DNA from: Liolophura sinensis
Taxonomy: Eukaryota > Mollusca > Polyplacophora > Chitonida > Chitonidae
Direction of reading: 5' to 3'
Assembly: GCF_032854445.1 (NCBI RefSeq)
Contig: NC_088303.1
Coordinates: forward strand, 17,553,501 to 17,617,500
Length of the DNA: 64,000 nucleotides
The stretch's first letter is position 1. Each line of letters begins with the position of its first letter. The notes under the pieces are model-generated. The model was not told the origin of the DNA. It did not search any database and saw nothing but the letters and a program-made list of their open reading frames with translations. The position numbers and the translations under genes are program-made. Positions 5,201 through 60,412 of the stretch are shown one piece after another.

Positions 5201-8200
5201 GCTCAGTCAGTAACAACCACTATCAATGCAATGAATCCCGGGATACACTTTCTGAGTACCAGGGCGAAACTTTCGGTCATTTAACATTGATCAGTTGGTC
5301 AGTTGTTTGGTTGGTCAGTCAATCAAATATTTTAACATCCTATCTCGTATAGGACATGTGATTAACATGGGGCCTGATTTCAAGACAATGTCAACTTTCC
5401 CAACAGATTTCACTGCTATTGCATATTTGCAAACTGATGAGAAAAATCTGTCCTTTTGTTAGGTTATGGTTACCTTCTGAGCGTGGCCCCAGCCTCTCCC
5501 TGCAGCCATAGACACTCCTTCAACCCAACATTCTCTGTGGCATGGAAAACTGGGAATAGTTTAGCTGTGGCTAGTGTCTGCTCTTTTGGGTTCTGAAATG
5601 AAGAGAACGCAACAATGGTTTATCACACATAGAAAATCTTATTTGTGTTCAATACTGTTTTCTGCCATATTTGAAAATATTTCACTGATATGACTGTGGA
5701 CTCATGACTAAGGGGTGGAAGATATCTCCTGAGGAAACTGGACAGAGCCCAGATGAAACCATTTCACCTGGCCAGGTAAACATGATACACCGGACATAAA
5801 ACCTACATGTAGTGTGGAAGAAACACCTGAAACTAAGACACACCTTTCTGATTAAAAACCTGAGACAAATAAACCAGAGATGGATTTGAACCTGGTACCT
5901 CACACTCTAGACTGCTCAACCACTTCTGCCATCCGTTATTACCTTGGTATCCCAGAGATCCTCCTTCACAATGCCTGTCCTAAGGAGAAAGTCTTCCCAC
6001 GGTTCATTACAGAAAGTTCCTGGATCTTCATACACGGAGGCCTGTAACAGAGCTAACCCATTTCATCAATGAACCAGGGGGCATTTACTATATCCAGGGC
6101 CATATTTAGAGCCATTTCAGTTCCAAACTATAAGTTCATAAAGCACCTGATTTGTGAAAAAAAGTTGACCATTAGGCATACCAATTCACAAATAATATTT
6201 CTTACCAGAAGAGACACACTGCTACATTATGAAGGAAATAAAACTGAAGGTGGGAATTACTAGTCTAAGCCATAAACTGAAAAATAAAAAAACTATTAGG
6301 CCAAATATACAAACTGGCTCTGACTTACATGAAGGTTATCAAATCTGCCATGCACTGTTAGCACGTGCTGAGAAGTGCCAAGCGTCTTCAGATGGATGTA
6401 GAATCCCTGAACAACAACACTGTTGGCAAATCTTACTGGGTGCAGACTCTGTCAAACAGAACAAACCAATACGAAATCAGAATCAATATTATGTCAATCA
6501 AAAAGCCATGTTTTCTCAGGGCATGTCTTTAAAAATCAGATAGAGAAAGATTTATGCATACAATTATTTTGAAAATAACACCAAAAATGATTTGTTTAAA
6601 TCACTGAAGATGCAAGCTTCATAAAACTGTGCACATGATTTCTCTACAACCCATATTTCCCTCAAAGTGTTTTAAAATATTCGTTACAGTGGTGATTGAA
6701 AAGGTCAAAGAATTCAGGTAATTGTAGATTTAACCCTCAAGAAATGTTCAGTTACAGTGATCGGTCTTATATGTACAGAAAACCAGACTCCCTGGGGTAA
6801 ACCACGGACCTTAAATGACAAAGATAAACATTTCCATGTCTGAGGTACAGACCTGCAAACCTTATACCCCCAAAAAAGCCGTCATTAATGGTGTGGTGTG
6901 CACCTACAAGTCAGTGCGACAGCCAGCAATACTCAACCAATACAATGACTTACAGGTCTTCAATTTTCATACTAAGTTTTACAGGTCAAATTTGTTGAGT
7001 ACTAATGTCATGTGAGAGTTTATGTATGTATGTATACTTGAGGTTAAACATCATACTTTTTCGGTCATAAGACGACCAGGAGTCATTAGATGTGTGTGTA
7101 CATATATTGTGTCTTCTTGTGGCAGGGTGAGTACTTGCCGCCAAGGCTGCATGCAGTTGTGTTATACTGACATCGGAGCAGCCAGTCACGTTTCCTTTCC
7201 CTGACCTCTCATTGCTGAGCGGCAAGCAAGGCAGCAGGTAGTACCATTCTTAAAGTCTTTGGTATGACCTGACATGTTTGATCTTGGTGTCTCCCGACTT
7301 CCCGACTCCCAACCCTCTAGCCAATAGGTAACCAAAGGGGTCATAGGAGTTTGTGGATTAAGGTCTTCTACTGTCAAAGTATCCAGGCTGGTTTTGTCCT
7401 TGTGGCCAAAAGTCTGCAAAACATGCCCTGCTTAGGCATAATGACTGTTCAGCTCTCTTTGCTGTATACACAGAGTGAAAAAATTAATGTTTTCTGATGT
7501 CTTGTTTTCACTGTGATCAAATATTTTAGTGTCAATCAAACTAATTTTACCACAGCAAGTCTTGTAGAGAAGTTTAATTCCCTGATCTTTTCTTTATTTA
7601 TCTCTTTGATTGGCATTTCACCCTGTCCTCAAGAGTAGCTCATTTTCAGCATGGTGAACGGCATTATGGCGGGAGAAAAATGTGCCAAGCCAGGGGGAAG
7701 CTCACAACCAATACCATCCATAGTCTGCATTGATCTTTCAGGTTCAAATGTACTGCTACAAAAACTTACTTTGCTGTTGTCGAGTTTGACGCCAGTGTAG
7801 AGGGAGTCTTTGCCCAGAGTTACTTCCCCTTCAATACAGGAGTGAGAAATGGCCGTGTTCTCCATGGTGACGACCCCGCCTGTCAGAACACTGTTCACCA
7901 CCACACAACTATCACATACATTGCAGGAGGGCTGAAAATAGTCACAGACACACACTCACATTAAGAGGTGGCTGAAGCAATAAAACCATGTGGCATTTTC
8001 ATCAGAAATATAAAAATTGAACTGTTTTTTATTTTGCTTTTCTGAACACACTGATTATTCTATCGACAGAGTGAATGATTATACTGTTTGACACAAAAGT
8101 ATTTCAGTAATATCCTCGCGAGACAATGAAACAGGTAAATAAACATTTATGATTTGGTTTTGGTGTAAGTGGAAATAATGAGATCATCTTAATGAACTTC

Positions 8201-11200
8201 TTTGGGGTTACTTTGCTTACTCTTGATACATCAATGTAGGAATGTATTTTACTTCTGAACACAATGACACTCACATCTATATGGGAATGTATTTTACTTC
8301 TGAACACAATGATACTTACATCTATATAGGAATGTATTTTACTTTTGAACACATTGATACTTACATCTATATAGGAATGTGTTTTACTTTTGAACACATT
8401 GATACTTACATCTATATAGGAATGTGTTTTATTTTTGAACACGAGGTTCAGGTCCTTCATGGTCTGTAGAGGACAGTTAAGCTGATACTCATGATGGTCA
8501 CTGCCTCTACTGCCCAGGTAGTGGTAGGATCCCTCTACAATACCTGGGAGTACACAAGGAACAATACAAACAAGCTTTGTCTATAGATTAGATTGTTACT
8601 AAACACTATACTCAAGAAGTCAGTTTTATGGCTGGTGGAATCCATGTAGCCTGTGGCAAACCATGGACCTTTGGCATGTTCCTGATGGACCTACATGTAC
8701 CTACATGTGATTAACACACTATACTGGTGGGTGAGGAGTGGTCTTCAAAAAGCATTAGACTGCAGAAACAATAATAAAAGAAATTTGTACATTCCTTGTA
8801 AATAGAAGAATTTAGAATCATAAAGCAATACAGTTTGACAATATAAAGGTGCATTGGGGGCAGATTAGAGCAGATTTGTTCATGGTTTCATTTGATAGGT
8901 CACTGACAGACATAAGTTCAATCTCATTCTTTTTTTTTTTTTTTTAAATTCCGCTGCTCTCTTAGCTCATGGGGTCTTCGTGGCAACAAGTGGTCGACAG
9001 TGACTCTGTGCAGCCTTACACGAAGTTTGATAAACACTTGCATTTCACTAATGACATGTCATGTCAGTAATTGCTCAGATTTCAATGATTTGTTCTTGGC
9101 ATTCTGGTTTGCCCCACCTGTAAAACTGGTCAACATCATATAAGTGAAAAGTTCTTGATGTGAAACATTATTTGTATGAAATTGTTAATTTTAAGATAAC
9201 TACAACTGTAAAGATGACTTCAATGGTAAAGAGTCTTTTGTAAGGATGTTGCGTCCATTAAGATAGATGATTTACAAAAGTAAAAATGTGTAAATATTTA
9301 TTTATTTGATTGGAGTTTGACATGAGCTGCACTTGAAGTCACAGTAAACCACAAATATATTTGTAAAGATCATGTGAAGGGGACTCCACGTGTAAAGATG
9401 TTGTGCTCACATGGACGTATCTTCAGATCACTTAAGTTTTTCCAGATGAGCTGACGCGCTGTTTTCATGATGGCCCTGTCAGTCTTCAGTTCTCCCGAGC
9501 TTTCGTACTGCGTGGACCCAGACATGCCAAAAACTCCACTACGATCACCTGACACAAAGGCCTCCTCATTCACCCCACTCGCCATCGGCAACATCACATC
9601 AAAGAAAAACGAAAGCTGGAAACAGATGATGTTCCGTTAATACAGAAAGCATATAACATGCATGATTTTCAAACAAACTGTCACTTCAATTTGAAGGTAA
9701 AGAAAACTCTCAAAGCATACTTATTCTTAAAAGAATCAGATTTTTAAGGCTTCTGTCAGTGATATGCAGTTGTACTGTATATAATACAAAAAATTTGTAA
9801 GGGAGGAAGGTAATTTTATCTCGTGTTGTTTTAATGCAAGCCTGCTCTAAAAAAAACCCACGATGAAAAAAGAAATATGTGTAAATCCACCTTTTTCTTT
9901 TGTCAAATCATGAGGTTTTCATGACTTTACTGTGTTTCGAGGCTTTCCGATCACGTAAATATATAAACAGGAAAAATTGGTGAGACGGTCCCCATTTACA
10001 CAAATTAGGTAATATTTTTACACTCTCCTTTGACGATGAAAAAAAAAAATCTAGACTGTAAAGCAAAAATTTTAATTGTGTGAACTAACCCATAAAGATA
10101 GTATGGATACAAATAGATGTATCCTGTCTTTGAAACCTTGTAATTTCTTAAAAAAAATTTCTATTAAAAAGAAATTAATGTCAGATATTTAAATGAATAG
10201 ATCTCCATGTTTTCTGTATATCTTCAGTGTTATACATGTGTCACAAAATGGTCATATCAATCAATCAATCAATCATTTGACAAAGACACATCAATTCCAA
10301 CAACCACAATTACAGTTTCCTTTAGAGTGTTCAAAACTGATAATGATCTACCATTGTACTGGTATTCAGAATAAAAAAGTTTGCCACAAGCCACAATTTT
10401 ACCTGTCCAGAAGGAGCTTAGTTAGTTACCTGTAACGGTGGGGAGCCATTGTCGACGCCCATGTAAGTACAGGCATCCAGGGGAGGCTTGACATGGAATG
10501 AGAGAAGCTGCTGACACACGGCCACACCCAGATACACAATCCCACACAGCTGAGAAAAACAACACGCCAAAACTATTTCTGCACTGCTGAAAAAAAGCTC
10601 CATTTTGGAACGAATGTCAAAACTAACTTAAATATGGGTCAAATATTTATCTTTACTTTCTGTATACCACTGTAATCAGAAGATTTTTTTCACAGTGCGA
10701 GTATGTGTTCATAAGCAACAAGTGTAAATAATTATACCATTAGAACAATGGTAAGATCTAACAGAAGGAAAGGTACATTTGTAGTTTTTAAAAAGCTTAT
10801 TGGTGAGTGAATATTTAGGGAATGCTAATATGCCAAAAATATCAATGTTAAATGTTAAGACCACACTTCTTACCACGGGCACTTTTCCTGATGGTAAAAC
10901 ACATTCGTTGATACTGTCCATACTAGCCTTGTACAATATATCTTCAACAAAGCCCTGCCAAAGGTCCAACGGAAATGATTAATTACATAATGTCATTTAG
11001 GTGTTTCATTTGTACATGTCATTTCATATCTTCTCAAAGTTAACCAATAACCACTGCACAAATGTATCAGCTTCCACCACATACGGAATAAGTACTAAAG
11101 ACAACCAATGATTTTGGCTGTACATGTACTCACTCATATGGAAGACAGGGTTAAGGTTGAACAAAACCTCAATGTTCTCCTGCACTACTAACTTTGTAAA

Positions 11201-14200
11201 GCCAAGAAAAAAATTATGCACCTCCCCAAGGCTGAAGCACATGACAAACTTCCACAGGCTCATTACAAACTTCATAGTATCATAAAAACTGGTACTTCTC
11301 CAGGCACACTGCAACTTTGTAGTGCCAAGAAGAAACTCATGCAGCTGCCCAAGCACATAACAAACAAACTTTGTAGTGTCACAAGGAAACATAGGTACTT
11401 CTCCAGTCACATTACAAACTTTGTGTCACAAGGAAATATCACTACTTCTCAAAGCACAAACTTTGTAGTGCTAAGAAGAAAGATCTGTACTTCTCCAGGC
11501 GCAAACTTTGTAGTGAAAAGGAAAAGAACTACAAACTTTGCAGTGTTACAAAGAAACATTGACACTTCTCCAGGCACCAGTGCTAAGAAGTAAGATGTAT
11601 CATCACCTCATCATCCAATTTATATATGATAAAAAACCCTGCACTTCTTCAGGCACATTACAAATTTTGTAGTGTCAAGAAAAAAAAAACCTGAACTTCT
11701 CCAGGCACATCACAAATTTTGTAGCGTCAAGAAAATAAACCCTGCACTTCTCCAGGCACATTACAAATTTTGTGGTGTCAAGAAAAAAAAACCCTGCACT
11801 TCTCCAGGCACATTACAAATTTTGTAGGGTCAAGAAAAAAAAAATCTACACTTCTCCAGGCACATTACAAATTTTGTAGCGTCAAAAAAAAACCCTGCAC
11901 TTTTCCAGGCACATTACAAATTTTGTAATGTCAAGAAAAAAAAACCCTGCACTTCTCCAGGCACATTACAAATTTTGTAGGGTCAAGAAAAAAAACCCCT
12001 GCACTTCTCCAGGCACATTACAAATTTTGTAGTGTCAAGAAAAAAAAAAACCTGAACTTCTCCAGGCACATCACAAATTTTGTAGCGTCAAGAAAATAAA
12101 CCCTGCACTTCTCCAAGCACATTACAAATTTTGTAGTGTCAAGAAAAAAAAAACCTACACTTCTCCAGGCACATTACAAATTTTGTAGTGTCAAGAAAAA
12201 AACCCCCTGCACTTCTCCAGGCACATTACAAATTTTGTAGTGTCAAGAAAAAAAAAACCTGAACTTCTCCAGGCACATCACAAATTTTGTAGCGTCAAGA
12301 AAATAAACCCTGCACTTCTCCAAGCACATTACAAATTTTGTAGTGTCAAGAAAAAAAAACCTACACTTCTCCAGGCACATTACAAATTTTCTAGGGTCAA
12401 GAAAAAAAAACCCTGCACTTCTCCAGGCACATTACAAATTTTGTAGTGTCAAAAAAAAAAAAAAACCCTGCACTTTTCCAGGCACATTACAAATTTTGTA
12501 GTGTCAAGAAAAAATACCCTGCACTTCTCCAGGCACATTACAAACTTTGTAGTGTCAAGAAACAAAAAACCTGCACTTCTCCAGGCACATTACAAACTTT
12601 GTAGTGTTACAAAGAAACATCAACACTTCGCCAGGCACACTACAAACTCTGTAGTGTTACAAAGAAACATCGACACTTCTCCAGGCACACTTCAAACTTT
12701 GTAGTGTTACAAAGAAACATCAACACTTCTCCAGACACACTACAAACTTTGTAGCTTTATAAAGAAACATCAACACTTCTCCAGACACACTACAAACTTT
12801 GTAGCTTTATAAAGAAACATCAACACTTCTCCAGGCACACTACAACCTTTGTAGTGTTACAAAGAAACATTGACACTTCTCCAGGCACCAGTGCTAAGTA
12901 GTAAGACGTATCATCACCTCATCATCTAATTTATATATGCTGTGTGAGCGACATTTCTCTTTGTCCTCCGGAATAGTCAGGGCGTACACATCACAGGGCT
13001 CCCATTCTATCACTGAAACAAAGCCATGTACAAGAGCCTGTGAGTGGGTTTACAATCAGTTATTAATCAAATATTGTTAATTTTAATGACATCAAAGTAA
13101 CAATAAAGTTATACATCAAGAGCGACATTCAAAATATATACAGTACAAATGTATATTTGTTTTTAATTAGGCACCTAAATTCTATTCTATTTTATTTGAA
13201 ACTACTATAATTGTGGAATAGAATTGATGTGGAGACAACAACAGATATAAAAAAAAATCAAGGTATGAAACAAAGATTTAGTTTTCCACCTTTTTTTTTT
13301 GGGCCTGATTACTTATTAGCTTGATACTAACCAGTGTTATCTGTCAGTGTGATTAACATCTCAGTACTGCATACCCATACACCTGGAGGGGAATTCACCG
13401 CGATCTGTGGATAGAGCATGGCAACAATGGTCAATGAACACTCAACTCTTGTTTACCAGAACAAGTTAAGCCACTCCCTTTACTAGACTTAACAGATCTG
13501 CAGTTAACCTGATTGTTAAACTTAGTGTATTTCACCTAAAGCATAGCATTATGATACCCTAAATGACCATAAATTCAGTTCACGACTAACTTGTCCATTT
13601 TCCCTGATCCTGAGATTTCTTTAGAGTTTAGAAAGGTGTTTAAAGCTTTTCTTGGCACATGGGATGACATTCTACTCAGAAATTGCAAGTTACAGCACCA
13701 AGAATAATAGTTTGTGATATTCATTTGCCTCTGAAAATACACTTTTGTAGGCCAATTTAAGGTAATTTCTTATCAGAAACTTGAAGTTGGGAATGTAAAA
13801 ATACACATCCAGAAGCACTTAAAGGCCTTTGAATAACACTTTTATGCCAACACTTAAGTTCTTCTACTGAGAAATTAATCAAACTTTACAAAAAAACCCC
13901 TCTTATGTTGCCCAATAAAGTGGATGATTCCATCAGAACAAAGAAACATGTGTCATTTAAAACAAACTGAATCTACTGATGACATATTAGCTTGCCTGTA
14001 ACCATGGCAACTGATAGGTGTAAACTTGCTGGCATTAAACTGACAGGAAACAAAAATAAATAAGTATCCCATATACAACTTTGTATTTTACCAAAAATTT
14101 AATACTGGGTTTTACTTACATAACACTAACCAAATGACCATTTTTCATCTCACAGAAACCATTTTCTTATTTAAAAAAAGAAATGTAATTTCAGTCCTAT

Positions 14201-17200
14201 ATTTTACAGAAATATTTCCTTTCACTGTATTACCATGCAGGAGAAAAATTTAATTTACAAAATGATTAAAAAGCTGACTAAAGCCCATACCTTTTCTGTA
14301 AGCAACTCTATAAGAATATCAACATGAGTAACTAGGCAGTCATACTCAGGTTGTTTGGGTTTGGCAGGAAAAGTGAGAAATGGCCGGCCACAAGGGTCGT
14401 ACGGGTATTTCCTGCCCTACAATGTTAAATCAATGTTACTCAGTAATCAATATGAAAACCCATTCAGCTGTACAAAAATAAGTTAAAATGATCTGATAAT
14501 TAAACAGCACACTCTCATTTTGAAGATTATATTTTGAAATGTTTGTTTGTAAGACACATTGAGCATAAATGCATGGGAATAATGCACAAAATAATTTCAG
14601 ATATGCCAGGTTGTAATTTAAAACAATTATACTCTTCAACTCAGTGGTTCAGGATTTTCCATGACCTACGTCAAACAACACTGAACTCTTTTCCCGCTAA
14701 GAAGTGACTTTTCCCCCTAACACTTCTTAATGGCACCTGCTGAACCGTGACACACCTTCACATGTACAAGGGTAACAGAGCAGAGGGAAACCATGAGGTG
14801 CCTGACATACACCCAGATGTATGAGAGTAAAAGAGCAGAAGGAAACCACCAGGTGTCTCACACACATCCAGAAGGACAACAGAGCAGAAGGAAACCACCA
14901 GGTGTTTCACACACATCCAGATGGACAACAGAGCAGAAGGAAACCACAGCACCTCATCAGGTGCTGGACACACATCCAAATATATGGATGGAACAAAGCA
15001 AAAAGAAACCATGGCACCTCCCCAGCTCCCTAGGTGTCTGACACATATGCAGATGTATGAGAGCAACCCAGTAGAAGGAAACCATGGCACCTCACCAGGA
15101 GGCAGGCACACCTTCAAATGCATGAGGCTCAACAGAGTGAAAGAAAACCAAGGGACCTCGCCAACTTGCTAGGAATCTGACAAACCTCGAGATGTACTTA
15201 TTTATTTATTTCAAGAATATTTCACTTATACAACGGCGGCCATCATTATGCTGGAAGGAGAAAGAGCAGAGCCCGGGGAAAACCCAGGATTCTGGCAGAT
15301 CTTAACATGTATGTTCGGAGAGGAAGCCAGCATGAGGTGGATTTGAACTCACAGCGACCACATTGGTGGAGGGCTCCTGGGTTATTGTGCCATTCTGGCA
15401 TGCTAACCCTTTGGTCACATAGGCCCTGCCAGATGTATTTAAGTCCCCAGTCAACTGCGCTGTGGTTGGATTTTGAAGTGCAACCACACTGGTTAAGGAC
15501 CAGGAAGTCTGAGCTCATGTAGTTTTTCCCCGTGGTCCAGCGAGGGACTGACAATCTCAAAAGAACAGAGAGTAACAGTGACAGATGCAGGCTTAGCTGC
15601 TGTGGGGATCTTTGTTATAGAGGCTTACCGCATGAATAATGATGATGTGTGCATCCTGTAGGACATCAGCATTGACAACCTGGAAACAAAAACATTGTTG
15701 TCTTCAAAATATAAACATGGAGTTAATTCAGACGAGTAACTGGTCACTTTTATTCCAACATGGTTGTGAGCTCCATGATACATGTAGTCCACACTTAGCT
15801 TCCCGACCATACACATTTCTCTGCAGAGTAAGCCTTGATCCTTGGCAGCGCAAACTTGTCTTGCTCTTTTTATTTGACGTACATCACTGCCAATAACAGC
15901 ACATGCCCTACTGCCTATACTTGCCTTACACTGCTGCCAACAACAGTAAATAACCTCTCCTGATACACGCCTTACATCACTGCCAACAACAGCACGTCCC
16001 ACTGCCAACAAACAGCACATGCCCTGCTGCTTATATTTGCCATACACCCCTGCCAACAACAGCACATGCCCTGCTGTCTATACTTGCCTTAAATCACTGC
16101 CAACAACAGTATATGGCCTACTCACTTTACTTGCCATACACCCCTGCCAACGACAGCAGATGCCCTGCTGCCTATATCAGCTTTACACCACTGCCAATGA
16201 CAGCACATGCAATGCTGCCTATACTTGCCTTACACCCCTGCCAACAACAGCAAATGCCCCGCTGCCGATACTTGCTTTACACCACTGCCAACAACAGCAC
16301 ATGCCCCGCTGCCTATACTTGCCTTACATCACTGCCAACTACAGCACATGCTCGGCTGCCTATACCTGCCTTACATCACTGCCAACTACAGCACATGCCC
16401 GCTGCCTATACCTGCCTTACATCACTGCCAACTACAGCACATGCCCGCTGCCTATACCTGCCTTACATCACTGCCAACTACAGCACATGCCCGCTGCCTA
16501 TACCTGCCTTACATCACTGCCAACTACAGCACATGCCCGCTGCCTATACCTGCCTTACATCACTGCCAACTACAGCACATGCCCGCTGCCTATACCTGCC
16601 TTACATCACTGCCAACTACAGCACATGCCCGGCTGCCTATACCTGCCTTACATCACTGCCAACTACAGCACATGCCCGGCTGCCTATACCTACCTTACAC
16701 TACTGCCAACTACAGCACATGCCCCGCTGCTTATACCTGCCTTACATCACTGCCAACTACACCACATGCCCCGCTGCCTACACCTGCCTTACACTACTGC
16801 CAACTACAGCACATGCCCCGCTGCCTATACCTGCCTTACACTATTGCCAACTACAGCACACAGTCCGCTTCCTATACATATACATACCTGTTTTACCTGA
16901 CTACCAACAATACATCGAGTTGTTTGCTTCATGCCTTACACTCATTTTCTAGCTCATGAATGAATTTAGTGTACTGCTTGACTGTTTCATGCTTTACTCC
17001 AAAATTTTTCACTTAGAAGTTAAGAAAACAACAAACAAGTGAATTTCAACATGCATAAGACTTTGCAAACAACGCTGCAAACTTTGTCTCCAATGCTTAT
17101 ACAGGAAGATCTGAGAAATCTACAAACTAAAGGTGGTTTTGCATTAAGTAAGCGTTATCATGAATTAGAATGGCTAAGCTGTGGGATTATGTAACATTTG

Positions 17201-20200
17201 ACAACTATAACAACATTATAGGTGTATCCTGGTTGAGAGCACATGTGGTTCACTAGCTACCATTAACATGTTACGCATAGAGGAAGTGGCTACAAGTTGC
17301 ATTTGTTATATATATATTTAATTGACTGGTGCAAGACTGCGTGCTCAAGAATTTTTCAGAAAGTTACATTTGTAATGCAGTGATTTTCATAAATCTACAG
17401 TGTCTAATGCAAAAAAAAAAAATATATATATATATAAATATTTCAGCCTGACTGGAGTTTTTTTGATATTTTTTTTTATTATTTTTTGATATTGATATAT
17501 CAATTTTTTGATATTATGACCTATACATCGCTTCCTTGCATGTTTAGAGCTTTACAAGTAGCTTGCTTGCAGTATAATAGGAAAAGAAGAGTAAACTAGA
17601 ACTGAAAAAAGAAGTGGCCTTACGTGTGTTAGTAGGTGTCACTCGGTTTTGTAATCAAAGCGTTTCCCAGCCTGTCACTCACGTTTTGTCATCAAAGCGT
17701 ACCTCAGTCTATCACTCAGGTTTTGTCATCAAAGCGTACCTCAGTCTATCATTCAGGTTTTGTCATCAAAGCATGTCCCAGTCTGTCATTCAGTTTTGTC
17801 ATCAAAGCATGTCCCAGTCTGTCATTCAGTTTTGTCATCAAAGCGTGTCCCAGTCTGTCACTCAGTTTTGTCATCAAAGCGTGTCCCAGTCTGTCACTCA
17901 GTTTTGTCATCAAAGCGTGTCCCAGTCTGTCACTCAGTTTTGTCATCAAAGCGTACCTCAGTCTATCACTCAGGTTTTGTCATCAAAGCGTACCTCAGTC
18001 TATCATTCAGGTTTTGTCATCAAAGCATGTCCCAGTCTGTCACTCAGGTTTTGTCATCAAAGCATGTCCCAGTCTGTCATTCAGTTTTGTCATCAAAGCG
18101 TGTCCCAGTCTGTCACTCAGTTTTGTCATCAAAGCGTGTCCCAGTCTGTCACTCAGTTTTGTCATCAAAGCGTACCTCAGTCTGTCACTCAGATTTTGTC
18201 ATCAAAGTGTGTCCCAGTCTGTCACTCAGTTTTGTCATCAAAGCGTACCTCAGTCTGTCACTCAGATTTTGTCATCAAAGTGTGTCCCAGCCTGTCACTC
18301 ACGTTTTGTCATCAAAGCGTACCTCAGTCTATCATTCAGGTTTTGTCATCAAAGCATGTCCCAGTCTGTCATTCAGTTTTGTCATCAAAGCGTACCTCAG
18401 TCTATCACTCAGGTTTTGTCATCAAAGCGTGTCCCAGTCTACCACTCACGTTTTGTCATCAAAGCGTACCTCAGTCTATCACTCACGTTTTGTCATCAAA
18501 GCATGTCCCAGTCTGTCACTCAGGTTTTGTCATCAAAGCATGTCCCAGTCTGTCACTCAGATTTTGTCATCAAAGCGTACCTCAGTCTGTCACTCAGTTT
18601 TGTCATCAAAGCGTACCTCAGTCTGTCACTCAGATTTTGTCATCAAAGCGTGTCCCAGTCTGTCACTCAGTTTTGTCATCAAAGCGTACCTCAGTCTGTC
18701 ACTCAGATTTTGTCATCAAAGTGTGTCCCAGTCTGTCACTCAGTTTTGTCATCAAAGCGTACCTCAGTCTGTCACTCAGATTTTGTCATCAAAGTGTGTC
18801 CCAGCCTGTCACTCACGTTTTGTCATCAAAGCGTACCTCAGTCTATCATTCAGGTTTTGTCATCAAAGCGTGTCCCAGTCTGTCATTCAGTTTTGTCATC
18901 AAAGCGTACCTCAGTCTATCACTCAGGTTTTGTCATCAAAGCGTGTCCCAGTCTATCACTCACGTTTTGTCATCAAAGCGTACCTCAGTCTATCACTCAC
19001 GTTTTGTCATCAAAGCATGTCCCAGTCTGTCACTCAGTTTTGTCATCAAAGCGTGTCCCAGTCTGTCACTCAGTTTTGTCATCAAAGCATGTCCCAGTCT
19101 GTCATTCAGTTTTGTCATCAAAGCGTGTCCCAGTCTGTCACTCAGTTTTGTCATCAAAGCGTGTCCCAGTCTGTCACTCGGTTTTGTCATCAAAGCATGT
19201 CCCAGTCTGTCACTCAGATTTTGTCATCAAAGCGTACCTCAGTCTATCACTCAGGTTTTGTCATCAAAGCGTGTCCCAGTCTATCACTCAGGTTTTGTCA
19301 TCAAAGCGTACCTCAGTCTATCACTCAGGTTTTGTCATCAAAGCATGTCCCAGTCTGTCATTCAGTTTTGTCATCAAAGCGTACCTCAGTCTATCACTCA
19401 GGTTTTGTCATCAAAGCGTGTCCCAGTCTGTCACTCAGATTTTGTCATCAAAGCGTGTCCCAGTCTGTCACTCAGTTTTGTCATCAAAGCGTGTCCCAGT
19501 CTGTCACTCAGGTTTTGTCATCAAAGCGTACCTCAGTCTATCATTCAGGTTTTGTCATCAAAGCATGTCCCAGTCTGTCACTCAGTTTTGTCATCAAAGC
19601 GTGTCCCAGTCTGTCACTCAGTTTTGTCATCAAAGCGTGTCCCAGTCTGTCACTCAGTTTTGTCATCAAAGCATGTCCGAGTCTGTCATTCAGTTTTGTC
19701 ATCAAAGAGTACCTCAGTCTATCACTCAGGTTTTGTCATCAAAGCGTGTCCCAGTCTATCACTCAGGTTTTGTCATCAAAGCGTACCTCAGTCTATCACT
19801 CAGGTTTTGTCATCAAAGCGTGTCCCAGTCTGTCATTCAGTTTTGTCATCAAAGCATGTCCCAGTCTGTCATTCAGTTTTGTCATCAAAGCATGTCCCAG
19901 TCTGTCATTCAGTTTTGTCATCAAAGCGTGTCCCAGTCTGTCACTCAGTTTTGTCATCAAAGCGTGTCCCAGTCTGTCACTCGGTTTTGTCATCAAAGCA
20001 TGTCCCAGTCTGTCACTCAGTTTTGTCATCAAAGCATGTCCCAGTCTGTCACTCAGATTTTGTCATCAAAGCGTACCTCAGTCTGTCACTCACGTTTTGT
20101 CATCAAAGCGTACCTCAGTCTATCACTCAGGTTTTGTCATCAAAGCATGTCCCAGTCTGTCATTCAGTTTTGTCATCAAAGCATGTCCCAGTCTGTCATT

Positions 20201-23200
20201 CAGTTTTGTCATCAAAGCGTGTCCCAGTCTGTCACTCAGTTTTGTCATCAAAGCGTGTCCCAGTCTGTCACTCGGTTTTGTCATCAAAGCATGTCCCAGT
20301 CTGTCACTCAGTTTTGTCATCAAAGCATGTCCCAGTCTGTCACTCAGTTTTGTCATCAAAGCATGTCCCAGTCTGTCACTCAGTTTTGTCATCAAAGCGT
20401 ACGCCAGTCTGTCACACGCTTTTGTCATCAAAGCATGTCCGAGTCTGTCACTCGGTTTCAACAGCTTTTCTCTAAGTTTTCTACACATAAGTTTTCAACA
20501 CAACATCGCCAAAAATGACTGTCTCTGATGTCTCTTATATTATTATCAAATGTTTTTTGTTGAGCAAATATAAGTTTATTCTACCACTATACTAAATTTG
20601 CTTGGCTGAAACATTTTCAGCATGGCGTACAGGTTATAGCTTACTATGACTCACAGTATCACATCGTGGCTGCCGTAAGTTATGCATTTTAAGTTGGTTT
20701 ACAGGCATCTTATGCAACTTTTTGTGTTCCCTGTAAGAGATGAAGCTAAAAATTTTGATTATTTAGAAATTTAAACCAAATCATATTATAGTTCACAAGA
20801 GAAATATTATCTTTAAGAATAAAAATAATAATTTACTTTTATAGGTTACCATGTATCTTTAACAGATTGCATTGATAACAGTCACTTCCTTCTTTAATGG
20901 TTTCTTTAATACCTTCAACACAGGAGAGTTACGAGACCAACGTAAAATCACTTAAGTTATGGGAAGTTGGCGAGAAGTGTGCAGTCGTATTTTGCTGTGG
21001 CAAGTGGAGTATTAAAACTGTGAACAGAGAAAGTGATCTTGTGTTGTGAGCTCTGTGATGGCTGAAGGCTTTCAAGATGGCTAGCAACTACAACTAACTC
21101 TTACTGATGTAAACAGTACCGAACAGGAACATTAGAAGGGGAAACAGAAGCACGCAACATCACATCATTTGCAAAAGAACACTGTAGTGACTATGACGTG
21201 TTTGTAGCAGAGGCGATGTGCTGTGATTGATATCGAATGTACTAGAACTGTATGTGGTGTTAACAAACATAACACAGTCCAATCCTTGCCCAGTCAAAAG
21301 CAGTTAAAATCTGGAGATGGTAAAGTCGGTCAAACAGGTGACAAAACTGGCACAAATAGGAAGTACTAGCTGTCAAATTCACACAGAGGTTGTGCCAACA
21401 AACATTCCATTACTTCTGAGTAAGAATTTACTCAAGAAAGCTGGTACAGTATTAGACCTTAAAAATGACAAGGCAAAAATGTTCAATGAACCTGTAAATC
21501 TAGAATTTACATCCAGTTGACATTACTGTATTGACATTTCAGCCAAGTTAGACACAAATGAGAACTGTGCAGAAGAAGTTTTGATGTCAGCTGACTTTTC
21601 GAAAGTCAAATGAACAAAAAAGAACTGCTTGAAAAAATTCACAGTCTAGCCATGAATCCGCTTCAATGCCTTTTGAAAACAGTAGGAAAACGCACACACA
21701 TGTTGCAAGAAATTGTACCCATGTGCACTTCATGCATGAAATTTAAAAGCCATACCCCAAACCTGCAGTTGGCATGCCTCTGGCTACTAAGTATAATGGA
21801 ACCGTGCCTAATTAGGGCCCTCTGTGTGGTATCTGCACCTGATAAATTTATTTACTAGATACAGTGTAGCCTGTGTTCAAAACAAAAGTGTCTTCAGAGA
21901 TAGTTGCTAAGTTCATACAACACTGGATATGTGCTCATGGGGCTTCATGTAAAGTTCTTATAGATAATGGAGGGGAATTCAATAACTGGGAATTCAGTAA
22001 TATGGCACAGAACTTCAACATAGAAGTTAAGACCACAGCAGCATATTCACCTTGAAGTAATGGATTAACGGAAAGACACAACCAGACACTTACAGAAATC
22101 CTTCTCAAAGTTAAGGATGACAACAAATGTGTGCATTTATGGCAAAAAACTGTTTACACAATCAACATGGCTTCAGCCTCTACAAGCTTGTATTTGGTCA
22201 GTCCCCAAATCTGCCTTCAGTTATAAGTGACAAACTTCCAGCTTTAGAAGGTATCACTCGAAGTGCTGATGTAGGAAGGCATATAAGTGGCTTGCATGCT
22301 GCCAAGACAGCTTTCACTGAATCTGAGCGTTCTGAGCGTGTTCGTAGAGCCTTGAGAAAACAATCTCGTCCACTGTCAGCTGACTATGTTAGTGGGGATA
22401 AGGTGTATCACAAACGTAATGATAGTTCAGAATGGAAGGGCCCTGGTATTGTCATTGGAAGTGATGGCGGTTTTGTCATCTTTGTCAGACATAGTGGAAC
22501 ATATGTGCGAGTTCACCAGTCTATATTATGCAAGATAGATACACCTGAATGTAATGACAAAGTAGGAAGTAAGACGAATTGTGTAACCATACACACCAGA
22601 TAATCTCTGGGAAACTGACCTTTCTGATGATGATTCACAGTCCCTTAATAGTCATAAAAGCCATGAGACTCCAAGCAGTTTTAATGACTTTGAGTCGGAT
22701 AGTGTCAATGAATCAGGCATAGTCGAGTCAAATTTGTCATAGAATAGCTCAGAAAGTTTAAAAATTCATCCAGGGGACAAAGTTCAGTTTAGGGATAGTG
22801 ATTCAGGCACATTACATTCAGCAACAGGGAAGAATAAACTATGGCATAACTTGCAGTATTCAAAGCCGTCAGATAAAGCTGGCGTAAATGAATCTGTTGA
22901 CTTGAGTAGCAGAATTCGAAAAGGTAGAACAAATTAACCAAAGTGATGATAGCATACTTGAGGTTAGTGATACTGACTTTTCTGAAGCCAAATCTACAAA
23001 ATTACAGTGATAAATAATGATGTGTATGTCACCATACGTGATAAGGGACAAAAATGTATTTCCACCAGGTGGATTTACACACTGAAGAACAGTCCTAATG
23101 GAATCATTCCCAAAGCAAGACCTGTTGCGAGAGGGTTTGAAGAAAGCAGGAATGAGGAAATTTCTAAGGACCTTCTCACGTGTGCCACTGAATCACTCCG

Positions 23201-51174: not shown

Positions 51175-54100
51175 GGTGTTTTGATCATAACGACATGGAT
51201 TGGAGTTCATGGTTCCTGTTTGCGAGAGCAGTCCAGAACTGTGCGACAGGTGGTCAGACAGGTATGTAAAATATCTGTATTATCTTCAGAAGATCAGGCA
51301 ATATCAGGTGTGTATAAAAACCTATAGTTATCTGCAGGCTGCCAGCTAACCAGGCAATGTCAAATGTGTAAAAACACCTATAGTTATCTGCAGACTGCCA
51401 GCGGATCAGGCAATGTCAGGTGTGTAAAAAAAAATCTATAGTGATCTGTAGGCTGCCAGCAGATCAGGCAGTGTCAAGTATATATTAAGAAAGCCCATTG
51501 TTAGCTACAGCAGATCAGGCAATGCCAGGTGTGTATTAAGAAATCCCATTGTTAGCTACAGCAGAGTAGGCAATGCCAGGTGTGTATTAAGAAATGCCAT
51601 CATTAGCTACAGCAGATCAGACAATGCCAGGTGTGTATTAAGAAATGCCATCGTTAGCTACAGCAGATCAGACAATGCCAGGTGTGTATTAAGAAATCCC
51701 ATTGTTAGCTACAGCAGATCAGACAATGCCAGGTGTGTATTAAGAAATCCCATTGTTAGTTACACCAGATTGGGCATTGTTTTTTATACTGGCAACACTT
51801 GATATGCATCTCAGTGGAATGGCTGTAATTGTCAAAAAACTTGAAGTATAACTATGTCACTCCTCAGCTCTGTCAGTTACATAAATTTACGGAAGTTAAT
51901 TTACTTCCATAGTTTCTATATGTATTTGCCAGTTCAGTGAAGGTAAATTTTATTTCATGCTATCCTGCATGGTACGGGTTCAGGCAGCCATTTGACATAC
52001 TGTTCATGTTTTTACAATGAGATGGTATTGTTAGCTTTTCTTGTCATATGTTATATGCACACATGTATCTTGCTCTTTGCTCCTACAGGAAATTTTTTCC
52101 GCCTTTGCCAAGGTGGGGAACTCTGTTGATATTCCACCTAGTTGCCCTTTTCATCCAGATAGGGACATGTACCTGGTTCATGAGAACAATAAGGCCATGG
52201 AGAGCGTGTCACGCTGGGTGTGTCAGTTCTGCGGGAAGGGCTTCACTGCAGAGCACTTCCTAGATCGTCATTTCCAGAACAGGCACCCAGAACACGTTAG
52301 ACAGGTAGCTATAGGTGTATAAATCCATGTGGATTATTTTGCTTGAATTTTGAGTTGTACATACTTTGGTTGTGCTCAGCATGGAGGAATTATAGGTGAA
52401 GAACTGGCCAGGCTGAAATATCGCTGAAAGTAAAGATGAACCACAAGCAAACAAACAAACACACTACTTTGATTATTAGAATGACAATTTGTGACAAACA
52501 TCAACCATGATAAATGTTATATAAAAGTCTAAAATTTCAATTCTGTTTAATATTTATGTATGTTGATGAAAACGGTCTTAACAGGGTTATTGTACCACCT
52601 GCGGATGGTCATGGGTTTCCACTGGACACTTTCTGGTTTCTTCCCCCATAATACTGGCTGAATAAGTATAAGTGAGATATTCTTGAGTACACTGTAAAAC
52701 ACCAGTCAAATAAATAAATTAAAATGTTTTTTAATGTACTGGTATTTATTTTTTGAATTTTAATCTCAACCAAAAAAATACTGATTAGTATTATTTTTGA
52801 CACGTATTGCAGGGTAGAGAGATTGTGTGTCTATCTGATTACTGTGATATTTTCCGCTGTGATGTGATTGGAACAAAAAATAAGGTGGATTTCTGGCAGG
52901 TTGCATTATGTATTGAGGATGATTTGATAGATCTACGGAGGAAATGTGAGGTGAGTCTAATGTTGCACTATATTTGGGGGGTGAACTGCTGCCAGGTGGT
53001 TAAGGTGCTAACCTTTCATTCAGTATGACATACAGAGTGTGGGTTCAGACAGTCAGTAAGGTGGGTAATGGTACGAAGAACTTTGTCACCATGTTGACTG
53101 TAAGACTTTCAGTAAAACTGTCAGTAGCCAAGGTGTTTAGTGTGCCAGTGCAGTGCAGACCCAGGAGCCTCTCACAGGTGTTGTTGCTGGGCATTCAGCG
53201 CATACTGGCTTTCTCTCCTGCAGCACATAAGAAGGTTGGCCAGCAACTTGCGAATGATCATGGGTTTCCCCTGAGCTCTGCCTAGGTTTCTCCCACCATA
53301 ATGCCAGCCACCATTGTATGAGTGAAATGTTCTTAGTACTGTGTAAATCTCCAATCAAATAAAGAAATGAATAATGAATTAATTAGATTGGAGAACTGTA
53401 AATAGGTATCAAAGCCTAAGTTAAAGTAGTCTTGAAGAACCAGATGGCTAGGCCTGATAGTTTCCACTTCAACCAGTTGTGACATATCACAAATTCTGTG
53501 TAACTGGCTTCCTCTCCATTTGTATGTGAGAGGGTCTGCTGTGAGCTCAAGTCCAGCTCATGCTGGCTTCCTCTCCAGTTGTATGTGAGAGGGCCTGCTG
53601 TGAGCTCAAGTCCAGCTCATGCTGGCTTCCTCTCCAGTTGTGTGTGAGAGGGCCTGCTGTGAGCTCAAGTCCAGCTCATGCTGGCTTCCTCTCCAGTTGT
53701 ATGTGAGAGGGCCTGCTGTGAGCTCAAGTCCAGCTCATGCTGGCTTCCTCTCCAGTTGTATGTGAGAAGATCTGCTGTGAGCTCAAGTCCAGCTCATGCT
53801 GGCTTCCTCTCCAGTTGTATGTGAGAGGGCCTGCTGTGAGCTCAAGTCCAGCTCATGCTGGCTTCCTCTCCAGTTGTGTATGAGAAGGCCGGCTGTGAGC
53901 TCAAGTCCAGCTCATGCTGGCTTCCTCTCCAGTTGTATGTGAGAAGGTCTGCTGTGAGCTCAAGTCCAGCTCATGTTGGCTTCCTCTCCAGTTGTATGTG
54001 AGAAGGTCTGCTGTGAGCTCAAGTCCAGCTCATGCTGGCTTCCTCTGCAGTTGTATGTGAGAGGGCCTGCTGTGAGCTCAAGTCCAGCTCATGCTGGCTT

Positions 54101-57100
54101 CCTCTCCAGTTGTGTATGAGAAGGCCTGCTGTGAGCTCAAGTCCAGCTCATGCTGGCTTTCTCTCCAGTTGTATGTGAGAAGGTCTGCTGTGAGCTCAAG
54201 TCCAGCTCATGCTGGCTTCCTCTCCAGTTGTGTGTGAGAAGGTCTGCTGTGAGCTCAAGTCCAGCTCATGTTGGCTTCCTCTCCAGTTGTATGTGAGAAT
54301 GTCTGCTGTGAGCTCAAGTCCAGCTCATGCTGGCTCCCTCTGCAGTTGTATGTGAGAAGGTCTGCTGTGAGCTCAAGTCCAGCTCATGCTGGCTTCCTCG
54401 CCAGTTGTATGTGAGAAGGTCTGCCAGCAGTCAATCAAATCAATAAATAAATAAATAACAATTATTCTGTTTCCAGGTTACAATGGATTTGTGCATTCCA
54501 ACACTTTTGTCCCAAAATACTTCACATGCTCTGAGAGGTGAGTGAAAGTTGTTTTATCTTTGCCTGTCAAGTTTCCCTCTAGACTGCAATTTTATACAGC
54601 TATTAAATGTTAAATTGCATTCAAACAGTCCTTTGGAAAAGTTGAACACTTATATTTACTTCATGTATCAGAGCTTCCCAATTTGGCTGGACATGTATTA
54701 AGATTGATTTTCAATCATAGATGTGCTTAGCTCTTTGTACCTAACATATTTAGAACACACACTGGGTTTTCAGATCTCCTTTGTTTTCAGAATAAATAAA
54801 TTTAGGTTCAGGAAATGATGCTGCAAAATTTATGTAACATTCTTTGGATGGAGTTTCTTGGTTTCTTTGGTAGTCTTGGATAACAGCTGACACTTTTAGG
54901 TTAAATAGACTTCCTTCCGATGGCAAAAAAAGTGTGCTGTTATTTTAGATGTTATCTGCATAAAGTTGAGATGTCTACTGACATATATGTGACTTTGAGT
55001 GAACAATTGAATGTTCAGTTGAATCAGGGGTTTGCCTTTGACCATCAGCATTCTCAAGTTCCTACATTTAGAGACATGGCCAAAGATTGACTTTTTTGAT
55101 TGATGCTACCTCCCCTTGTTCTCCAGACGGCTGTCCTACACGGTATTGTGTTGTAATTATGTGTCTGACCGTGTATGTTTAGTTGGCCGTACAGATCGTT
55201 GGGAATTACAAATACTGTATGGTAGATTATATTTGGTTTACTAGACTTATAATTCGCTTTCAGTATTCAGTATCATATTGTTTACATGTGTGATCCAGAG
55301 GCAAACAGTGTATTGTGGGAATGTTAGCACTGCCTCATTTGCATGTTATCTCATTGGGTGGAGAGTTTAGACCAGTGACGGATTTCCCCTTAGAATTCTC
55401 TTAATTAACATTTTTATACAATATGGACCCAGGAGGTTTAGTTTGAAGGAGTCATATGAAACCCATTTTTGTATTTAGCTGAACCAACTCAAAAATTCAG
55501 AATTTCTTTCTGCAGTGGGTCCCTTTAATGGGTAGCAGGAATATTCTGTTCTATTTTCCCTCAGCCTGTCTTAAGGCACCCAATACAATCTACTTCCTGT
55601 TTGAATATTTTCTGATTTGTTGTATGCACTGCATATGATACAGCTTTACCATTTCATCATATAAGGTAGGCTGTGGAAAAGATCACCATATCGTAAAACT
55701 GATGAAACCCATGGTTTGCCTCTGAATCATGTTTTTACAGACTTGTTGTACCAAGGAGTTTGTTCGTACCTCACCTGTCACACATACTGGGACACGCCTT
55801 TTCCTGAGGTATGTTATTTCCTCTTTTGTTGACATGATAAACATATTGTTTTGTACTTAAGGGCTTGTGACAGAGACAGTGTGAAGCCATGTCTGATTTA
55901 CAACCGAAAACTCATCATTAGTTTCGAGTTCTTTCAAGAAATCTTTTGTCATTAAATTTAAGAACAGTGCTACTGTTTCGGGTAACGTGAAAAATGTCGG
56001 GTGAAAATGTCAGGCAACCTTTGTTGACATTGATTTACAGATCACTGGTCTCACTATACTCCACAGGCACAAATGACATGTCTTTCATTTAGGAACTTCT
56101 CAAGTTCACAAATGGTTTCTCAATCTTTCGTCTATAATTACGTTTTGTGAAACTTTTTTCTGATGCCCATGTCATAGTAAATGTGATCTAAAATAGTTGC
56201 CTAACATTTTTGACTGATCACAAGATACAGTATGACTTTTTTACCTTTAGTGATAAAAGAGTTCAAGGTCAAAGCTTCACAAAGCTTCATCATTGAGAAG
56301 ATCATGAATAGTCAAAGCTGGCAGTCTTGTTTGATTAGGCTGAGAGTACTGCTGTTTCAGCAGTAGGGGGTAGTTAGCCCCATTGTTCATGCAAGTGTAT
56401 TGGTATGATGTTGTTGTTGACAGGAATCGCAGACGGCTCAGATCCTGTATGTGATGGCCTGTGTTTTTGTCCTGTTCGTGTTCATCATGTACTACTGCGT
56501 CGTTCTCAACTACTACTAGTAAGTCACTTCACCTACGTAGAAACGATGTAGATACAGCAAGAATTCAACAAGACAGTCATAACAGGAATACAGATGGCTG
56601 TCAGAGTTGAATGTAATTGTAGTTGTAAAATAATTCTTTTGTGTTAAATCCCCACAAAGTCTAGGCAGGAAAATACTGGAGCAAGATTTATTTATTTATT
56701 TGATTAAATTAATGTTTAATACCATGCTCAAGAAATTTTTCACTCACATGAGGCCAGACAAGTTATAAGGTGGACCAAACCACCAACATTCATCGGCTAC
56801 ATAACAAAGCCCATGACTTCATGGAGGAGCAAAAACAGGGAGAACAGGTTTTGAACCACACATCCACATTCAATTTGGTCAAGGTCATGATTATCACCTT
56901 TATTGCAAAAAGAGAAGAGAGCGTTTTGCAGCCTGCTACAACCTGTATTTGAAAAACAAGTGGACATGCAAATCCAGCTGAATTCCAGCATTTTTATAAT
57001 TTCCAATTTCCTAATAATTGCGACCATTGTCATGTTGAGTACATTCTAATTGTGGTTAGGTTGGGCTTTAAGTCAACTTTGTCAGGTACCTTCCTAAGGT

Positions 57101-59995: not shown

Positions 59996-60412
59996 TACAG
60001 CAGGGCCAGGCTTATGGGTAGAGCTGACTGGAGTACCCAGGGCCAGGCTTATGGGTAGAGCTGACTGGAGTACCCAGAGCCAGGCTTATGGGTAGAGCTA
60101 ACTGGAGTACCCAGGGCCAGGCTTATGGGCAGGGCTAACTGGAGTGCCCAGGGCCAGGTTTATGGGCAGAGCTAACTGGAGTGCCCAGGGCCAGGTTTAT
60201 GGGCAGAGCTAACTGGAGTGCCCAGGGCCAGCTTTATGGGTAGAGCTAACTGGAGTACCCAGGGCCACGCTTATGGGCAGAGCTAACTGGAGTGCCCAGG
60301 GCCAGGTTTACGTGTTGAGCTAACTGGAGTACCCACGGCCAGGATTATGGGCAGAGCTGACTGGAGTACCCAGTGCCAGGCTTATGGGCAGAGCTAACTA
60401 GAGTACCCAGGG
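59996..60412. repeat. 37-bp minisatellite, 11 copies
   Basis: Unit: GGGCCAGGCTTATGGGCAGA then GCTAACTGGAGTACCCA. Point variants (GGTTTATGG, TGACTGG, GTGCCC) distinguish the copies. Confidence 0.95.

Follow-up and report, generated by a model that had tools for sequence, protein, structure and literature searches.

At the boundary between exon 10 and intron 10 of the FCSK gene of the chiton Liolophura sinensis, the splice donor forms part of a tandemly repeated 45-bp unit, which comprises the last 33 nucleotides of the exon and the first 12 nucleotides of the intron. Are the repeated donors used alternately, so that the fucokinase varies in length in steps of 15 residues, as an earlier note on this DNA had proposed, or is the array a minisatellite that overlaps a donor by chance and leaves splicing largely as it would be with a single site? 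We addressed this question with the window (the whole 64,000-nucleotide stretch of contig NC_088303.1 that was analysed) and with the rest of the genome assembly. Positions without a contig prefix refer to the window.

The assignment of the gene to FCSK in the earlier note was borne out. A human FCSK query matched consecutive exons in tblastn from 25252 downward and beyond the left edge of the window (into C9:17543501–17553500), and the Pfam domains of the joined exons agreed with this assignment: Fucose_pyrophosphorylase (PF07959, E = 1.1e-46) in the N-terminal part is followed by GHMP_kinases_N (PF00288, E = 1.8e-9) in the C-terminal part, i.e. the two are fused in a single gene. In structure searches, the kinase part resembled the solved L-fucokinase/guanylyltransferase chains 9iip, 5yys and 9iit; the 519-residue N-terminal part had no solved relative at 0.01, and exons 10–11 taken alone had no reliable one (best E = 0.33). 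Exon 11 is presumably the start of the beta-helix part of the protein. The exon number 10 holds if one exon between 13332 and 10954, which is absent from our model and corresponds approximately to residues 163–193 of the human protein, is counted. According to junction modelling, exon 10 begins in phase 1 and ends in phase 0, and exon 11 starts at 7931, likewise in phase 0. Elsewhere in the assembly, a 529-residue open frame (C8:52274573–52275904, minus strand) has a full Fucose_pyrophosphorylase match (E = 1.5e-115) and is perhaps a separate fucose pyrophosphorylase gene.

Both TRF and the comparison of individual units confirmed the 45-bp unit on the minus strand. The array found by TRF measures 216 bp (8227–8442; period 45, 4.8 copies, 93% matches, score 348), and its donors lie exactly where they had been placed before (Table 1). 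The claim that all units are open and in phase 0 also proved correct, as the first stop that the FCSK frame meets after exon 10 lies beyond the five units, at 8106. The boundary score of the exon-10 donor is 85, against a maximum of 25 in 200 shuffles of the next 600 nt; in 40 junction tests on the 21 modelled FCSK exons, this donor was one of only two that scored far above the shuffles. Identity between neighbouring units falls off with distance from the exon, from 44 and 43 to 41 and 33 of 45 positions (from 8442 downwards; the last figure is that of unit 5) and to 34 of 47 aligned columns in unit 6.

Table 1. Coordinates of the FCSK exon 10 array, of its surroundings and of the other donor-side arrays
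Feature	Position	Strand	Remarks
FCSK exon 10	8410..8543	-	134 nt with the first donor; last 33 nt = repeat unit 1; tblastn and junction modelling
Repeat unit 1	8398..8442	-	exon end and donor GAT/GTAAGT at 8409
Repeat unit 2	8353..8397	-	donor GTAAGT at 8364; 44/45 identical to unit 1
Repeat unit 3	8308..8352	-	donor GTAAGT at 8319; 43/45 identical to unit 2
Repeat unit 4	8263..8307	-	donor GTGAGT at 8274; 41/45 identical to unit 3
Repeat unit 5, incomplete	8220..8262	-	outer end uncertain; donor reduced to GTATCA at 8229, PWM -0.63
Extra phase-0 donor AGA/GTAAGC	8215..8220	-	junction of unit 5 and the element; PWM 5.51, U1 -5.3 kcal/mol
End of dispersed inverted-repeat (MITE-like) element	8167..8219	-	80–87% identical to stretches on C12, C1 and C8
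Degenerate unit 6	8050..8094	-	donor GT lost; 34 of 47 aligned columns identical to unit 3
Degenerate unit 7	8005..8049	-	good alignment in first part only; in-frame stop
Intron 10	7932..8409	-	478 nt with the first donor; junction modelling
FCSK exon 11	7770..7931	-	acceptor ATTTTCAG/CCC, phase 0; junction modelling
Second FCSK array, kinase exon	window-relative -2353 to about -2890 (C9:17543501-17553500)		63-bp unit, TRF 7.8 copies
CCT3-like exon A	C8:53405971-53406162	-	66-bp units, seven CAG/GTGTGT, open past all seven
CCT3-like exon B	C8:53407400-53407582	-	stop at +1
CCT5-like	C1:72038329-72038478	-	109-bp unit, five donors, stop at +66
PSMB1-like exon	C13:7541783-7541920	+	stop at +44

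Three features of this region had escaped the earlier note. Two degenerate units (units 6 and 7), again with a period of 45 bp, lie further into the intron; none of 1000 dinucleotide shuffles of this stretch came up to their local alignment score of 40 (maximum 33). When the window was divided into 448 tiles, a higher score was obtained for one tile alone, which holds the array itself. The end of a dispersed MITE-like element, starting at 8219, separates unit 5 from unit 6. The opposite end of this element was not found within the window; the related short stretches on C12, C1 and C8 end in TAAGCAAAGTAAC, which is the end that adjoins unit 5. Finally, an additional donor, at 8220, arises where unit 5 meets the element; its use would add 63 residues. 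Given the decayed units beyond the element, the array is older than its contiguous part and was formerly longer, with its freshest copies adjoining the exon. In the assembly (609,464,459 bases in 632 contigs), neither a DNA search, which may miss repeats, nor a search for the core pattern that allowed no mismatches revealed a second site of the 45-bp unit, so the array was probably born in place. A dispersed origin of the unit was rejected, given that these searches found the array and the core pattern at the FCSK locus only. Minisatellites are otherwise common in the window, where ten arrays with units of 36–60 bp account for 11.7% of the length (among them 17637–20458, 11631–12888, 15880–16877, 53504–54424 and 60001–60412), several of them within FCSK introns.

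The FCSK array belongs with boundary-spanning minisatellites that are already known; the lineage and the apparent frequency seem to be new. The closest likeness is to the amphioxus 'mirages', minisatellite-like tandem duplications of exon–intron boundaries in Adh3, BflGb6 and BflGb9 (PMC3087553). According to that account, units there contain an exon end with its splice signal, several genes are affected, many units keep their AG/GT signals, copies at the edges stay outside homogenisation, haplotypes with six and with three units exist for one gene, and RT-PCR results suggest that regular splicing is undisturbed (PMC3087553). In FCSK, the tandem units likewise extend over the modelled boundary and, judging from the assembly search, derive from the gene's own boundary; GTRAGT is kept in four of the five contiguous units (PWM 7.9–8.0), and the intron-side units 5–7 are the most diverged. 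In contrast to the amphioxus cases, the FCSK array is found in a mollusc, has 45-bp units, lies on the donor side and maintains an open frame. The amphioxus work also had two haplotypes of one gene and RT-PCR at its disposal, whereas the FCSK array is known from the DNA of a single haplotype. No molluscan mirage was among the matches listed in a search of the open-licence literature, and our observations suggest that mirages occur in molluscs too.

In humans, a 31-bp VNTR with 16–21 copies, c.1444_1467+7(16_21), lies at exon 13–intron 13 of CBS (PMC2630376; also PMC1395315). Its name implies a unit of 24 exonic and 7 intronic nucleotides, so that the donor is repeated there as well; unlike the FCSK unit, that of CBS is not a multiple of 3 in length, and the array is described as polymorphic. 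CBS activity is said to be lower with more repeats (PMC5188458). Where internal tandem repeats lie at exon–intron boundaries of human segmental duplications, new introns can result (PMC2812944); these introns were inferred by the authors, and for two thirds of the intron changes there are also transcripts in which the repeat stays exonic. The likeness to FCSK is that expansion of a boundary minisatellite alters exon/intron structure (PMC2812944). Intron gain by tandem duplication is similar in that the duplication crosses a splice boundary; in that case, however, the duplicated segment spans the acceptor boundary and gave a detectable new intron, whereas in FCSK no frame-keeping acceptor was noticed by eye; on reading the sequence, the AG present in units 4 and 5 (TTCAG) would be out of phase with the donors.

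Which of the donors is likely to be used? We scored them with a donor position matrix (PWM) and by their pairing with the 5' end of U1. The donors at 8409, 8364 and 8319 score 8.04 each and that at 8274 scores 7.92, with pairing energies of -7.3, -7.3, -7.3 and -7.4 kcal/mol, respectively; pairing drops to -1.3 kcal/mol at 8229 and partly recovers at 8220. With this score, the exon-10 donor ranks 7th of 18 among the FCSK donors, the 17 others spanning 3.9 to 11.3 with six above 8.04, a comparison that is somewhat circular because the donors were partly picked by the same score; the 17 do not include the donors of exons 9 (7.7) and 11 (9.1), which came from separate modelling. The first three donors do not differ from one another, so leakage cannot be dismissed on local strength, nor does strength alone offer a choice among the first four. 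When flanking introns are large and strengths comparable, splicing favours the pair of sites with the shortest distance across the exon, and in human minigenes with two identical donors and introns of more than 250 nt the upstream donor was used exclusively, according to Carranza and colleagues (PMC9225289). The same study states that the downstream donor was chosen in about 60% of all human competing-donor events, and that where strength was unmatched the majority favoured the downstream donor in all four human intron classes (PMC9225289). Introns 9 and 10 measure 867 and 478 nt; because both exceed 250 nt, this exon-definition rule, which is based on human data, predicts the use of 8409. The alignment of exons 10 and 11 to the FCSK protein scores 43 with the donor at 8409 and 32–33 with the others, although any insert lowers this score. 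Taken together, the analysis suggests that FCSK splicing leans to the first donor. The part of the earlier interpretation that stands is thus the presence of donor copies of functional grade, each adding 15 residues in frame, and the part left unsupported is their actual use; the evidence leans to 8409. When the extended exon was modelled from its single sequence with AlphaFold2, the mean pLDDT was 50, too low to favour either reading.

The same genome provides further donor-side arrays for comparison. In the second FCSK array, each copy repeats the last 18 exonic nucleotides, and there are nine AAG/GTGAGC donors, the last two of which are off the 63-bp step. An in-frame stop follows 15 nt after the first of these donors, so a working enzyme needs the downstream donors to be passed over. 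Four more arrays were found in genes that we refer to as CCT3-, CCT5- and PSMB1-like, names that reflect our reading of the translated exons. A stop precedes the second donor in four of the six arrays, where later donors would consequently truncate the protein; FCSK exon 10 and the CCT3-like exon A remain open past all their donors. The donor scores of the PSMB1-like array (5.1 for the first donor versus 9.1 for the third and 9.5 for the fourth) do not fit well with a simple 'first and best' picture. For the set as a whole, the simplest account would be that duplicated donors after the first are largely passed over by the splicing of this animal.

We consider it likely that the FCSK array is a mostly silent mirage, that is, a minisatellite overlapping the donor by chance, and that the first donor is mostly used. 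The exon 10/intron 10 boundary would have been duplicated in tandem to give a minisatellite, with copies presumably arising via slippage or unequal exchange. Exon 10 would then be recognised by the spliceosome from its acceptor to the closest donor on its far side, at 8409, which would leave the extra donors inside the intron, mostly unused, and the array close to neutral. As the first donor copy is expected to be used, the array is probably harmless. At most, the in-frame spare donors might yield some minor isoforms longer by 15, 30 or 45 residues, or by 63 residues from 8220.

That alternate use of the duplicated donors produces fucokinase isoforms in 15-residue steps, over a range governed by copy number, appears doubtful. 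Length variation in such steps is possible on the grounds that there are four good phase-0 donors and the units are open, and the protein segment at the point of insertion shows little similarity to human FCSK in the alignment, which might leave room for extra residues. However, an open frame would arise by chance with a probability of approximately 0.29 (about 0.88 for the absence of a stop in the 12-nt intronic part, multiplied by one third if periods are free, on the assumption that a third of all periods are divisible by 3), and for this reason the open frame of exon 10 needs no selection. The CCT3-like exon A, open over seven units, is a similar case, and these two open arrays would also match selection for length variants, but the other four of the six donor arrays found in the genome are closed. 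Nor is there a sign of protein-level constraint between the units: seven of the codon differences are nonsynonymous and three synonymous, close to the 74% : 25% expected under neutrality, and we rejected protein-level selection on this comparison, in which ten changes provide little power.

It is quite improbable that a downstream donor (8274 or 8319) serves the majority of transcripts, which would make units 1–3 or 1–4 constitutive coding sequence and lengthen the exon. The intron-proximal rule of Reed and Maniatis, as told in PMC9225289, would point in this direction; moreover, intron 10 is not much longer than the 250-nt border, and the donor at 8220 would leave 289 nt. By the same rule, however, the products of the second FCSK array and of the CCT5-like gene would be truncated, and the protein alignment is best with 8409, with the reservation about inserts made above. 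An assembly artefact is very improbable, since the HiFi reads (SRX20411988), with an average of 8,347 bp, are far longer than the array, and although a single purged haplotype was assembled at a HiFi coverage of 14x (PMC11068029), the ordered differences between units and the older copies beyond the inserted element also speak against it. RNA-seq data of five tissues (digestive gland, foot, gill, gonad and heart) are public for Liolophura japonica (PRJNA973839; PMC11068029).

The frequency of such arrays was estimated in a survey of 117 donor and 117 acceptor edges (for each type, FCSK 20, ADH5 9, CCT 47, proteasome (PSM) 21 and AAA 20), a small sample in which edges are the ends of profile matches and only approximate splice sites, of which some may fall within an exon or mark the end of a gene. 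Three of 50 profile matches, located in long open frames (C5:5566404, C5:5567751 and C6:7942446), were excluded. The score threshold of 36 was chosen once the CCT edges had been inspected in a first round, in which scores above the shuffle maximum plus 3, or edges near a TRF array, had flagged 7 rows; it left out the acceptor edge C1:48451091 (score 32). Raw positives with scores of at least 36 comprised four donor and two acceptor edges in CCT, one donor edge in PSM, two donor edges and one acceptor edge in AAA, and none in ADH5; the two FCSK donor positives come from an earlier test, which had other settings. Several edges were dropped in the course of checking: at the CCT donor edge C8:53412069 the match overruns the exon and the donor likely lies outside the array, at the CCT acceptor edge C1:56787651 the similarity lies in the intron, and at C9:3026567 the array begins within the intron. 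The AAA edges C1:39401644 and C1:39401905 were dropped as well, because the whole exon is duplicated. At that locus (C1:39401644–39402075), two similar AAA-domain exons adjoin each other; they could have arisen by tandem duplication of an exon and be spliced in a mutually exclusive manner.

Checking by hand left 6 donor arrays among the 117 edges (FCSK 2/20, ADH5 0/9, CCT 3/47, PSM 1/21, AAA 0/20) and a single acceptor array (1/117, in CCT). Outside FCSK the figures are 4/97 and 1/97, respectively, the former being the fairer donor figure because FCSK was sampled on account of the finding itself. An automatic rule that required a span of at least 9 nt on each side gave 8/117 donors (CCT 4, PSM 1, AAA 1, FCSK 2, both of the FCSK donors being added from the test that gave no span) and 1/117 acceptors (CCT). 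The homologue of ADH5, which belongs to the same gene class as amphioxus Adh3, had mirages at none of its nine donor and nine acceptor edges. Control points, drawn at random no closer than 150 nt to a matched exon and in loci L006–L031 only, mostly intronic and not read by hand, had arrays in 83 of 1065 cases downstream and 86 of 1035 upstream; none of 260 shuffled targets reached the threshold. Against this background, donor edges showed no difference in any of the three counts (p = 0.36 for 6/117, 0.23 for 4/97 and 0.86 for 8/117). Acceptor edges look depleted of arrays (p = 0.0013 for 1/117 and 0.0047 for 1/97), and the direct comparison of donor with acceptor edges was not significant (p = 0.12).

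As a single locus, the FCSK array is ordinary; it is more interesting as one of several arrays of competing donors in one genome. Such arrays constitute natural experiments in which the spliceosome of one animal chooses among four to nine similar donors some 45–110 nt apart, and some of them, all in ordinary genes, have a stop between donors. Should only the first donor be used, the arrays would amount to a powerful test of exon definition in an animal that is not a vertebrate; if later donors are used, they would be a source of variable proteins. Gene predictors may set exon ends wrongly at these sites. A broader conjecture, which we regard as unlikely, is that several percent of donors in this minisatellite-rich genome lie in boundary arrays and that, where period and frame allow (FCSK exon 10 and CCT3-like exon A), splicing noise and changes in copy number would act as a heritable dial of protein length, with acceptor arrays being removed by selection. 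One array on the acceptor side was observed upstream of the exon at C8:53412482 (minus strand); it consists of 13.4 copies of a 41-bp unit, and many of the units carry a TTTATGTACAG- or TTTGTGTACAG-like acceptor.
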